Shown here one piece after another: positions 2,190-30,829 of a stretch of 38,744 nt of DNA. The DNA comes from an uncultured bacterium (GTDB lineage Bacteria > Patescibacteriota > Minisyncoccia > Phycocordibacterales > CAIJYI01). The notes beneath the pieces were generated by a model that was not told the origin of the DNA, ran no database searches, and saw only the letters and a list, made by a program, of their open reading frames with translations. The position numbers and the translations under genes were made by a program. Position 1 is the stretch's first letter. Each line of letters opens with the position of its first letter. The stretch spans positions 1 through 38,744 of the forward strand of contig CAIJYI010000036.1 in the NCBI GenBank assembly GCA_903824855.1, written 5' to 3'.

Positions 2190-3215
2190 TTAGAAGAATA
2201 TTCTGAAACGGACCATTGGTGCGTTATCAACTACTTTTGGACCATTATCGACTGAAGTTATCGAGTGTGTGAAGTCTAATGAGACGCTGGAATTTGCGAA
2301 TCGTCCGTAGCCACCTTCTTTTGGAAGTTCTAAACTCAATCCGCCGGAGAATCCATCATAGTTTATTGAGCCGTTCATTGTCTCATACATGGCGTTAACT
2401 TTCAGGTCGAGTTTATTGCCGTCCATTTTCCAGAGTGTATATTCGGGAAGAATAAATCCGCCCATACCAACAGTCGCTCTTTTTCCTACGGCATGTTCAT
2501 CGGCACGATACATGCCACCATAGAGATCAAATCGATCAGTTGGACTTGCTACAAATCTGAAACCTAAACGATGAAAATCAGTGCTCCATGCATTAAAGAG
2601 TGAAAGTTTGAGCAACGTTTTTCCGTCGGCGTCTTTCATCGCCTTCCAATCTATTCGTTGTGAAGTTTCCGTACGACTATTTCGATTTATGTCGTCGAAG
2701 GGGACTCCTGTTGTTCCCGTAATGTCTGCCGTAAGGGTTACGTCTTTGATGACGTTTGTTTGTATTTGCACACCATTAGCATACGAACCGAATGGGTTAT
2801 GTTGGCTCACTACCGGAATAGTTTCAAAAGATGCGGGAAGATATAATCCTCCGGCGGTTAAAAGACCTCCGGCACGAATAGTCGTATCGGAAAACATATT
2901 TCCAAAAAGTGGCTCCTTTCCAAAATTATATCCGACCCAAGCTTGGGTGATGTAATTCGCTTTTATTCGGTCATCAAGTCCGGCAATGTCGTTCTCCATA
3001 AAGAAACGCCAGTTTTTGTATTCTGCACTTGTGCGGATGCGAACCTGGTTTGCTTTAAATTCGGTATCTTTTCCTCCGACGATGTTCGTATATCCCCATA
3101 TCGAGACTTTTGCATTTTCTGATTGATAGAGCGGTTCCGGGTTATGTTCTGCGAGAGCACCTGTAGATAGTAATATCGCACAGAGTGTTAGCATAAACCT
3201 CTTTATAAGAGTCAT
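2190..3215 (-). CDS. putative outer-membrane beta-barrel / porin-like protein
   Basis: Sec signal MTLIKRFMLTLCAILLSTGALA; repeated amphipathic beta-like segments; C-terminus MVRFRIFF; SD GGAGGAG before ATG; TTGACA-17-TAATGT promoter. Confidence 0.65.
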   Translation of the reverse strand: MTLIKRFMLTLCAILLSTGALAEHNPEPLYQSENAKVSIWGYTNIVGGKDTEFKANQVRIRTSAEYKNWRFFMENDIAGLDDRIKANYITQAWVGYNFGKEPLFGNMFSDTTIRAGGLLTAGGLYLPASFETIPVVSQHNPFGSYANGVQIQTNVIKDVTLTADITGTTGVPFDDINRNSRTETSQRIDWKAMKDADGKTLLKLSLFNAWSTDFHRLGFRFVASPTDRFDLYGGMYRADEHAVGKRATVGMGGFILPEYTLWKMDGNKLDLKVNAMYETMNGSINYDGFSGGLSLELPKEGGYGRFANSSVSLDFTHSITSVDNGPKVVDNAPMVRFRIFF

Positions 3216-8829: not shown

Positions 8830-8955
8830 TTTTTGATAATACCACGGAATTGGATGAAAGGGAAGAAAACACACACGGAATAATTCGTTTTGTAGACAAA
8901 ATTCAATTATTATGTTATGATAATATAAGATATATAAACTAATTGGAGGTTTTCG

Positions 8956-9804
8956 GTGAAGTACTTTTACAAATTAATACCGCTGATACTTTTGTCTTTG
9001 GCGTTGTTATTCAGTTCAGGTTGTTCTACTGTCGGGTTGATTACTTTTGTTCCCGACCAGCGACAAGAAGTGTTCCACAACACATTGAAGTCGCTTAATG
9101 ATTTAGTGCGTCAAACAGGTAATGAAGATTCTCAAAAGATTCTTTCCATGTTTCAAAAAGAGAGTGTTCTCATTACTCCGACAAAAGACGGATTTCGTGA
9201 TCCGAAAATTTGGAACGAGAGAGAAACCCTTAAGGTTGTCGTTCTTCTTCCGGAAGATTCTCGGTTTCCATCCTGGTCTCAAATTGTTTCCGATAAAAAA
9301 AGTTACGCTTATTTTTTTCCAAGATACAATGTGATAGTTCTCAAAAGAATGGATGAGCTCAGTCCTGTTTTTCAAGCGATAACAGTTGACCATGAGGGTT
9401 GGCATGCTTTTCATTTTCAAAGTGATTCAATAGTAGCACGACCTTTAAGTTCGGAACATTTGGCAATCGAACGCGACACGTATGAACATGGGGCAAGTTT
9501 GCTTTCCTCAATTGGCGGTGAACCGTACAAAATGTTTATGCGAGAAGAAATGAAAAGAATTGATGCTTTTGTGAAAAATTCGGTTGGGGGAAATACACTT
9601 CCTGCGCTAAAAAATGAATACAATGAAAAGTTGGATAAGATATTCGGTGTTGCGCAAAGTGACACAGAAAAAAGAAGTAGGGTTTCTTTCATCGGTATTT
9701 CAGGTATCTTTCAGTATATCGATGAAAATTATCACGGTACACAACCGGAGAAAGAACTCGCAAAATCAAATGCGCTTCTGAATATTTATCGACACGGTCA
9801 ATAA
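8956..9804 (+). CDS. exported lipoprotein, putative HExxH metallopeptidase-like (family copy 1)
   Basis: lipobox LFSSGC; HEGWH-x21-E; shares YxxxxDxIFG and IGGExY blocks with the next two genes; SD GGAGGT, GTG start. Confidence 0.7.
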   Translation: MKYFYKLIPLILLSLALLFSSGCSTVGLITFVPDQRQEVFHNTLKSLNDLVRQTGNEDSQKILSMFQKESVLITPTKDGFRDPKIWNERETLKVVVLLPEDSRFPSWSQIVSDKKSYAYFFPRYNVIVLKRMDELSPVFQAITVDHEGWHAFHFQSDSIVARPLSSEHLAIERDTYEHGASLLSSIGGEPYKMFMREEMKRIDAFVKNSVGGNTLPALKNEYNEKLDKIFGVAQSDTEKRSRVSFIGISGIFQYIDENYHGTQPEKELAKSNALLNIYRHGQ

Positions 9805-9825
9805 GATTTAACGGTATTTGGTACA

Positions 9826-9858
9826 AAGGGTGGCTCAATTCGGCCGCCCTTTTTTTGT
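9826..9858 (+). terminator. intrinsic terminator
   Basis: AAGGGTGGC/GCCGCCCTT then T7. Confidence 0.75.
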
Positions 9859-9931
9859 GGACAATTTATCCTATATGTGGTAATATGCAGATAATAACGT
9901 TATTTGAAAATAATCTCAAAAGGAGGTTTAA

Positions 9932-10807
9932 GTGAAAAAAGAATATAAAAGCCTGTTGATTCTCGGGTTGGTTTTCTTATTATCCGTCGGTATAAACACC
10001 TGTCAAAAAAGTTTCGACAAGGATACCCCAATAACCGCTACACCAATAACCGCTCCGTCGTTTTCTGAGGCAGTCGGTCCGCGTCAGGCAATTGTGAAGG
10101 AATTTCTTGATGCTTTTCAATTGGTAGCGGATAAAACAGGAGATCAACAAGCGAAAGATAACTTGCAGATGCTTCGTGAAAAAAATACCGTCGTGATTCC
10201 TGACGAAAAAGGATTTACGTATCTTTCCAATGAGAATGATACCATAAAACCGATACGTATTATTCCGCTCATTCCGGATGATAGCCAATATTCATATTGG
10301 AAAAATGAATTAAATAGTGACGCGGCTGCGGCATTTGAAACCGGTTCAGGTCTTTTAATATTGAAAGACACGATGAAAATCAGTGCTTTTTATAAAGGCA
10401 CGCAGATTGCTCACGAAAGTGAACACGCGCGCAGATATTTAAATAACCCTTCTCGGAAATTCAACATTCTCTCGATTGCAAAAGAAGAATCGGAAGTCTA
10501 TGCTTTTCATAATCGTTTGATTGCAAAAGCAGGAGGTAGTGAATATACAACATTACTTCAAAAAATAACAGATGAAATCAGTCCACAGATAAAAACATCT
10601 GATGATAGTTTCAGTTATCCAATCCTTCCGTATTATCACGAGTTCGACAAAATGTTCGGCCCGGCACTTTCCTCCGAAGAAGAACAATTTAGAGCATTTC
10701 TATTTGAAGTTGATGTGATGTATCGCTATTTTGAAAAAACATCACCCGACAAATCAACAGATCTCAAAACTCTTTTTATGAAAAATTTGTACGAACCAAA
10801 GAATTGA
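9932..10807 (+). CDS. exported protein, putative HExxH metallopeptidase-like (family copy 2)
   Basis: signal segment with NTC lipobox-like site; HESEH-x20-E; FDKMFGPALSSEE; SD AGGAGGT, GTG start. Confidence 0.7.
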   Translation: MKKEYKSLLILGLVFLLSVGINTCQKSFDKDTPITATPITAPSFSEAVGPRQAIVKEFLDAFQLVADKTGDQQAKDNLQMLREKNTVVIPDEKGFTYLSNENDTIKPIRIIPLIPDDSQYSYWKNELNSDAAAAFETGSGLLILKDTMKISAFYKGTQIAHESEHARRYLNNPSRKFNILSIAKEESEVYAFHNRLIAKAGGSEYTTLLQKITDEISPQIKTSDDSFSYPILPYYHEFDKMFGPALSSEEEQFRAFLFEVDVMYRYFEKTSPDKSTDLKTLFMKNLYEPKN

Positions 10808-10810
10808 TAA

Positions 10811-10848
10811 AAAAATCCCCACCGGCATTATGTCGGTGGGTTTTTATT
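10811..10848 (+). terminator. intrinsic terminator
   Basis: CCCACCG-gcattatgt-CGGTGGG then T5. Confidence 0.8.
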
Positions 10849-10937
10849 TACTCAATATTTTTTGGACATTTAATTCGATATGTGGTAATACAAACATAGT
10901 AATGTTGTTTGAAAGTAATCTCAAAAGGAGGTTTTTT

Positions 10938-11801
10938 ATGAAAAAAATTACCAAAGTGTTTCTTTTAGTCTTTTTTCTTCTATCATTTGTCGGTTATTAT
11001 ATCTTTTCTCAAAACACAAAAGGAGAAGATGTTACTCCCACAGAAACAAAAAGTGAAATCAGTCAGCGTATCGTTTTATCAAATGATTGGATAAAAGGAC
11101 TTAATGAAGTTTATTCTCTTACCAAGAATGCGGAGATATACGATGAATTAATTCTTCTCAAGGAACATGGAGTCATTGGAGAGCCTAAAAACGAGGGACT
11201 TATTCCGTCACGGCAATTGAAAGATGATGATTTCTCCGTAATAACTCTTATTGCGAGCGATAAACAATTTTCCCCGTGGAACGAAATACTTGCTTCTCCT
11301 GAAGCCGCATCATATTCCGGATTGGATAAAGTCATGGTGCTAAAAAATAATTATTCGGTCAGTTTACTTTTTAAAGGAATTTTATTGGCTCATGAAACCA
11401 AACACCGTCTCTTGGATCCGGACAGTCTGGTTTTACAAGATGCGATGGAATATTGCCGTGAAGAAGTTGTTGTTCATTCGTTTGAAAATAAATTATTGCT
11501 ACAAATCGGTGGGGAAGCTTATCAGAGTCTTCTCAATCAAAAAGTAGATGAAATGAATAAAATAGCATCTGACTCTTCCATAAAAGCGCGTCCTTTCTCC
11601 TATTATGCGGATGAACTTGAGAAAATTTTTGGCCCGTCTCTTTCAAAAGAAGAAAAAATGACCAGAGTGGGAGCTTTTAAAATTGGAGCGATGTTTCAAC
11701 TGGTTGACCGATATTATGACGGCGACAAAAAAGAACAAAAAGCGCTTATCATGCGTGAAATGTATAAAGCAAACGGCAACTCATTGCCTGAAGGAAAATA
11801 G
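10938..11801 (+). CDS. exported protein, putative HExxH metallopeptidase-like (family copy 3)
   Basis: start revised from 10830 to ATG after AGGAGGT; N-terminal hydrophobic segment; HETKH-x19-E; LEKIFGPSLSKEE. Confidence 0.7.
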   Translation: MKKITKVFLLVFFLLSFVGYYIFSQNTKGEDVTPTETKSEISQRIVLSNDWIKGLNEVYSLTKNAEIYDELILLKEHGVIGEPKNEGLIPSRQLKDDDFSVITLIASDKQFSPWNEILASPEAASYSGLDKVMVLKNNYSVSLLFKGILLAHETKHRLLDPDSLVLQDAMEYCREEVVVHSFENKLLLQIGGEAYQSLLNQKVDEMNKIASDSSIKARPFSYYADELEKIFGPSLSKEEKMTRVGAFKIGAMFQLVDRYYDGDKKEQKALIMREMYKANGNSLPEGK

Positions 11802-11810
11802 TAACATACT

Positions 11811-11848
11811 CAAAATCCCCGCCGACATTATGTCGGCGGGTTTTTATG
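11811..11848 (+). terminator. intrinsic terminator
   Basis: CCCGCCGACAT/ATGTCGGCGGG then T5. Confidence 0.8.
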
Positions 11849-11853
11849 TATTC

Positions 11854-11886
11854 AAAAAAAATCACCCGAGATAAATCTCGGGTGAT
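11854..11886 (-). terminator. intrinsic terminator for the minus-strand gene
   Basis: ATCACCCGAGAT/ATCTCGGGTGAT with A-run on plus strand (T-run on minus). Confidence 0.8.
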
Positions 11887-11894
11887 GGTCGCAT

Positions 11895-12407
11895 TTATTG
11901 CGGTATAAGAATTTGTGGTCTTGTTTGGTGAGGAAGCATAACTCCGTTTCTACAATAGCTTAAATTGTAATTTACGCCTGACGCATCAGGACTCACAAAA
12001 TAGGGAACACCAAGACTGACAGTAAGTCGGCAGGTGTCTACTTGTGCGATACCAAGAATTTTAACCAAAACTGTTTCGGCTTCATTTCTCGAAGCAATCA
12101 AATTATTTCCAAGTAATGCTACGTTAAAACTGCTATCTTTGGCGTAGAACACTATGCTGTAATTTTGCGCAGCTATTATTTCCACATCTTTTTCTTCGTC
12201 TATAATTGTTGCACTCGGCAGTGAATAAAAATTATTAACAAAAATATTTTTATTGTCGGACGTTTTTATCAACAATTTGTTGCTTACTCTTGAAATAAGA
12301 GAGTCAACGATACCGCTCGATGATGAGGGAACGGGCAAAAGTAGCATAAAGGAAACGGTCGCCACGGCAAAGGTTTTTAAAAGCTTTGATAGTATTTTTT
12401 TGTTCAT
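11895..12407 (-). CDS. exported protein of unknown function
   Basis: start revised to MNKKILSK after AGGAGGG; signal-like hydrophobic segment; upstream TTGACA-17-TATAAT. Confidence 0.65.
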   Translation of the reverse strand: MNKKILSKLLKTFAVATVSFMLLLPVPSSSSGIVDSLISRVSNKLLIKTSDNKNIFVNNFYSLPSATIIDEEKDVEIIAAQNYSIVFYAKDSSFNVALLGNNLIASRNEAETVLVKILGIAQVDTCRLTVSLGVPYFVSPDASGVNYNLSYCRNGVMLPHQTRPQILIPQ

Positions 12408-12576
12408 TTTGCCCTCCTGATTCAATGTGCGTAAAAAAGTATTAATCTAATGAAAATTATAGCAATAATTACTCATTTTGTCAATTCTGCAGAGTCATTG
12501 ACATATTTTTAATAGTGTGATACATTTTAATCAGGAAACGGTTACAATTTATTGCAGAAAAAGAAGGAGGTTTGAC

Positions 12577-30349: not shown

Positions 30350-30829
30350 TTATTTTTCTGCTTCAATACCGAAGAATCCTTGAAAAGCTCTTTTTTCGGA
30401 ATCGGCTAGGTGATTAACTTTAATCGCGCACTCCCTTGCAAACATGGTATTTCTTGTTTTGTCAATTTGCGCACGAGTATATTGGGCATATTCGATGAGG
30501 ACACCATTACTGTCACGGCTCCATAATTCAGCATACAATTGACCATCCTTAATCCCTAACCTTTGTGTTTGAGAACGCTTTGAATAGTTCGTTGCGTAAG
30601 TCATGACCTCTTTCTTATCAGCTCGGATGCTTATAATACAGGAATCATTCGATAAATAGGTCGGATAATTCTTAATGAAATAGAATGGAGTATGTGCAAT
30701 ATCATAGATTGCCGGATAATTTGAACCGTTTATGTATTTGTGAGTACTCCATGTCTGATTCGGGTGTGTTTGGCAGGCAGATAACACAAGAATAAACAAT
30801 ATCACTGTGATTTTCTTTAAAATAGACAT
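30350..30829 (-). CDS. lipoprotein of unknown function
   Basis: MSILKKITVILFILVLSAC lipobox; SD GAGGAGGAC; TTGACA-17-TATAAT promoter. Confidence 0.7.
   Translation of the reverse strand: MSILKKITVILFILVLSACQTHPNQTWSTHKYINGSNYPAIYDIAHTPFYFIKNYPTYLSNDSCIISIRADKKEVMTYATNYSKRSQTQRLGIKDGQLYAELWSRDSNGVLIEYAQYTRAQIDKTRNTMFARECAIKVNHLADSEKRAFQGFFGIEAEK

Follow-up and report, generated by a model that had tools for sequence, protein, structure and literature searches.

Our study describes three tandem genes in a window of 38,744 nucleotides, the whole stretch of DNA that was analysed, from an uncultured patescibacterium. They follow one another on the forward strand, and each encodes a protein with an HExxH motif and, further on, a glutamate which may complete a zinc site:

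8956..9804, forward strand: copy 1, 282 aa, lipoprotein-type signal (FSSGC), HEGWH and E172
9391..9405, forward strand: HExxH of copy 1 (HEGWH), residues 146-150, within predicted helix 137-154
9469..9471, forward strand: putative third zinc ligand Glu172 of copy 1, from alignment, in predicted helix 166-208
9932..10807, forward strand: copy 2, 291 aa, N-terminal hydrophobic segment, HESEH and E186
10412..10426, forward strand: HExxH of copy 2 (HESEH), residues 161-165
10487..10489, forward strand: putative third zinc ligand Glu186 of copy 2, from alignment
10938..11801, forward strand: copy 3, 287 aa, N-terminal hydrophobic anchor, HETKH and E176
11391..11405, forward strand: HExxH of copy 3 (HETKH), residues 152-156, within predicted helix 143-158
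11463..11465, forward strand: putative third zinc ligand Glu176 of copy 3, from alignment, in predicted helix 169-211

The start of copy 3 is most likely the ATG at 10938, which stands behind an AGGAGG, rather than 10830. A sequence-only reading of this DNA had claimed three tandem homologous open reading frames, and all three are present. Their proteins align over nearly the whole mature length with pairwise identities of 20-26%, and this kinship is not due to chance, because the pairwise BLASTP E values run from 4e-18 (copies 1 and 2) through 1e-19 (copies 1 and 3) to 2e-29 (copies 2 and 3). The motifs described in that reading are borne out by the alignment: 21, 20 and 19 residues lie between the second histidine and the glutamate in copies 1, 2 and 3, respectively, and the blocks GG(E/S)xY and (F/L)(D/E)K(I/M)FG are present in all three. 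No further copy of the family was found in the same genome (1.106 Mb in 45 contigs).

Export-type N-termini were judged by inspection of the sequence. Copy 1 carries a lipobox-like FSSGC, a loose fit, and copy 3 a hydrophobic anchor with no cysteine, much as had been claimed for them; the INTC of copy 2, noted there as a possible lipobox, does not fit one, lacking the usual [AGS] before the cysteine. Most members of the wider family have an N-terminal hydrophobic segment, clear lipoboxes are seen in two relatives (G090 and G1045), and an evident signal is absent from the open reading frames read in three more (G188, G787 and G843). We infer a surface location for these proteins.

Other proteins of the window were also inspected. 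On the reverse strand, 11895-12425 encodes an exported-looking protein of 176 aa, which adjoins copy 3 in convergent orientation and has no meaningful family match, and 30350-30829 encodes a lipoprotein-like protein of 159 aa (SACQ) with no family match. The product of 2190-3215, also on the reverse strand, has 341 aa and a signal peptide; by eye it is strand-rich and porin-like, and its C-terminal FRIFF recalls outer-membrane barrels. Searches of Pfam, NCBIfam, PDB sequences and plasmids matched nothing to this protein, which is odd for a patescibacterium.

Relatives were sought with successively wider alignments as queries in genome samples at the level of the order, class and phylum; hits that matched the hydrophobic N-terminus or unrelated open reading frames by chance were left out. 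About 30 relatives were recovered, all from Patescibacteria, the sole phylum sampled. A survey of copy number, proposed as a follow-up to the sequence-only reading, places convincing carriers at 9 of 297 genomes of the order (about 3%) after reading of the open reading frames, and more carriers came from the class and phylum samples. A genome of the same genus (G001, Ca. Nomurabacteria Ike-200m-9) has two copies in tandem; one copy is the rule in the other carriers, among which G104 has two that lie apart, and the family is absent from two close relatives (G002 and G003). Profile-profile comparison links a second branch, marked by a WW(L/I)-type motif towards its N-terminus, to the window-type branch at 98-99% probability, against 0.1% for the reversed control. 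One member (L047 in G1011) has a single TAG within the matched stretch and may be interrupted. Phage, plasmid and viral-contig searches gave no relative, and neither did the three-copy alignment against the genome-contig collection, where the query P0004 returned its own contig only; an alignment of six members was too diverged for pattern scans.

Conservation of the putative zinc site was assessed in an alignment of 31 members, with columns ranked by relative entropy and numbered according to copy 1. The columns of His150, His146, Glu147 and Glu172 rank first, second, fourth and sixth of all those scored, with Tyr191, Tyr278, Tyr/His176 and Phe/Tyr120 among the other leading columns, and between 15 and 24 residues separate the second histidine from the glutamate across the family. 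All four site residues are kept in 26 of the 31 members, drawn from many genera. HExxH is a short motif that occurs at random in many proteins, and coincidence might have placed it in unrelated exported proteins; this explanation is refuted by the alignment, given the near full-length homology and the joint conservation of four positions in those 26 members, and we give it next to no credence.

Homologues without an intact HExxH, which the sequence-only reading had counted as evidence against itself, do exist: the remaining five members deviate at the four site positions, for which the tree needs four changes. Their residues at these positions are Arg-Glu-His-Glu (G025), Arg-Glu-Arg-Glu (G705), Arg-Glu-Ile-Lys (G729), Arg-Glu-Tyr-Lys (G584) and Ser-Met-Gln-Glu (G864), so that the first histidine has become arginine in four of the five, and in each of the five genomes the deviating copy is the sole copy found. 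The members with degenerate motifs are L015:1450-2394, L025:1489-2292, L026:1444-2307, L027:1252-2139 and L055:1489-2406. Degeneration of the site in this minority looks like secondary loss, and the five members that have lost site residues suggest that an incomplete site is compatible with the fold; the best reading of these sequences is that several branches of the family are inactive-looking. That four separate lineages keep the fold and lose part or all of the site would also suit a metal-binding or purely structural family, in which the site binds metal or stabilizes the fold without peptidase activity. However, 30 of the 31 members retain Glu147, the presumed catalytic residue of HExxH, which would not be expected to act as a ligand, and we regard such a non-peptidase role as improbable.

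The reading of these residues as a zinc site is strengthened both by their place among the most conserved columns and by predicted structures, in which they lie on neighbouring helices, the arrangement of gluzincins. Structure prediction covered proteins of the window and of one related locus (L065). AlphaFold models of copy 1 (pLDDT 84.4, pTM 0.80) and copy 3 (pLDDT 82.0, pTM 0.77), made with five sequences each, are confident and agree in the order of their elements: after helices and several strands come the HExxH helix, a helix of 43 residues and three C-terminal helices. In both models the glutamate lies about two turns from the start of the 43-residue helix, the next one after the HExxH helix, and the two histidines and the glutamate would converge on one point. 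Foldseek searches of the PDB place LTA4 hydrolase, a cold aminopeptidase, the collagenases ColH and ColG, and PprI at the top for copy 1, and PprI/IrrE, the same cold aminopeptidase and LTA4 hydrolase for copy 3, with selecase lower in the list; none of these is significant, the best E value for the two copies being 0.14 and the query-normalized TM-scores at most 0.30. A BFVD fold search returned scattered IrrE-like, SprT-like and M34-named matches among unrelated ones and was uninformative.

The proteins had earlier been described as belonging to no named peptidase family, and our searches agree: against Pfam, NCBIfam, PHROGs and PDB sequences there were weak matches and no significant one, with none above the curated cut-offs of Pfam or NCBIfam, and literature searches turned up no description of a family like this one from Patescibacteria. 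The gluzincins (MEROPS clan MA(E)), among them LTA4 hydrolase, the M1 aminopeptidases and the M9 clostridial collagenases, head the structural match list with non-significant scores, and like them the family has, in the models, HExxH on one helix and the glutamate on the next, with a conserved residue one turn later. This residue, Tyr/His176, sits where a second-shell residue is found in clostridial collagenases; in the collagenases the glutamate lies 28-30 residues downstream, in contrast to the shorter spacing here (PMC3711286). Unlike the M1 and M9 enzymes, the family is devoid of their accessory domains and has no sequence match to them. The IrrE/ImmA/PprI proteins (Pfam Peptidase_M78) also combine HExxH with a distal glutamate, and PprI is the best structural match of copy 3. 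Membership of Peptidase_M78 was rejected, as hmmscan gave no match and hhalign with a profile built from M78 proteins of Patescibacteria gave a probability of 14% for the window-type branch; the WWL-type branch reached 50% in a match of 15 columns that covers the motif only. Among the minigluzincins, selecase from Methanocaldococcus jannaschii represents a small gluzincin core, and 4qhj matches copy 3 with a TMt of 0.45 and an E value of 1.5. The selecase chain has about 108 aa, compared with about 245 aa in the window family, and to our knowledge no export segment is to be expected in it. The Pfam families DUF3920 and DUF6782 match one or two members each over the HExxH region, weakly and far below the curated cut-offs (E 0.012-0.09). 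What is new here is an unnamed family and its evolution, not new chemistry.

The tree of the family has long end branches, and its deep joins are unsure. Copy 1 pairs with the first copy of G001 (40% identity, support 96/91), a clade of window copies 1-3 alone is rejected (p-AU 0.003), and a clade of all five copies of the genus, three from the window and two from G001, is not rejected (p 0.47). Since copy 1 is sister to a copy from another species and the three-copy clade is rejected, at least one duplication is older than the split of the two species. The lineage-specific expansion put forward in the sequence-only reading can be upheld at the level of the genus at most; it does not hold for the three copies as a clade of their own, and the family as a whole is patchy across the phylum.

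The flanks of the three genes carry their own signals:

8893..8921, forward strand: promoter-like site of copy 1, TAGACA-17-TATGAT with TG before the second hexamer, a consensus match only
9825..9852, forward strand: terminator-like hairpin after copy 1
9853..9929, forward strand: promoter/5' leader of copy 2, identical to the copy 3 leader at 64 of 77 positions
10812..10855, forward strand: terminator region of copy 2, hairpin 10818-10840, identical to that of copy 3 at 39 of 44 positions
10858..10934, forward strand: promoter/5' leader of copy 3, identical to the copy 2 leader at 64 of 77 positions
11812..11855, forward strand: terminator region of copy 3, hairpin 11818-11840

Promoter-like sites are found upstream of copies 1 and 2, the stretch upstream of copy 3 closely resembles that of copy 2, and a terminator-like hairpin follows every copy, so that each looks like a transcription-unit-like cassette of its own, three separate ones in all. 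The leaders of copies 2 and 3 are 83% and their terminators 89% identical, whereas the coding regions are 26% identical in protein. The 27-nt core of the leader occurs nowhere else in the genome, the hairpin pattern occurs once more with 3 mismatches, and Rfam gave no RNA element between 8000 and 13000. A simple recent duplication of copies 2 and 3 followed by diversification of amino acids only was considered and is unlikely beside flanks of such identity, as synonymous codons approach saturation where the two proteins have the same residue (38 of 69 codons identical, 29.2 expected). A leader like that of copies 2 and 3 precedes the second G001 copy as well (scores 24-26, whereas these three leaders reach maxima of 12-19 when compared with 30 other leaders of the window), and the protein of this second copy groups with copy 1. 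Constraint on the leader, homogenization between neighbours or exchange of cassettes could each account for these likenesses.

From sequence conservation and the predicted models, we propose, with a probability of roughly 0.7, that these proteins are exported zinc peptidases of the gluzincin type and constitute an unnamed family. Family members would bind zinc and cleave proteins after export through the N-terminal signal or anchor, remaining bound to the outside of the membrane, either as lipoproteins or through a transmembrane helix. The catalytic half, small and made of strands and helices, would present the HExxH helix and then the long helix with the third-ligand glutamate, the conserved Tyr/His lying one turn past it. 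Two histidines and the distal glutamate would hold the zinc, the glutamate of HExxH would activate water for cutting of the peptide bond, and an all-helical C-terminal part with the DKIFG block would complete the fold. Our guess is that the substrate is an extracellular protein, either of a partner cell or of the cell's own envelope. A self-directed envelope protease would use the same chemistry for processing or quality control of the cell's own exported proteins, and so competes with our proposal on the target only; it is in keeping with membrane attachment in most members, with the promoter-terminator unit that each copy appears to form, and with the lack of a common partner gene beside the copies in the three neighbourhoods read. 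However, a family carried by about 3% of the genomes of the order and missing from G002 and G003 is a poor fit to a housekeeping task, and we consider this target possible, if rather doubtful. The patchy, sometimes multi-copy and fast-diverging distribution of the proposed peptidases fits an accessory role in interaction better than housekeeping, and its patchiness mildly favours a partner cell over the envelope as the target.

A broader picture can be drawn, which we offer as speculation and think unlikely in its entirety: a new gluzincin family restricted to Patescibacteria would act at the symbiont surface and diversify in exchangeable cassettes, in which a conserved promoter/leader and terminator surround strongly diverged proteases, with inactive copies born repeatedly, in an arms-race-like relation with host proteins. 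Few surface enzymes have so far been defined through which Patescibacteria, with genomes of about 1 Mb, act on the cells they live on. An exported, enzyme-like, patchy and fast-evolving family provides a concrete, clonable candidate for such an enzyme, and the repeated loss of its putative zinc site offers a natural test of the fold without catalysis.
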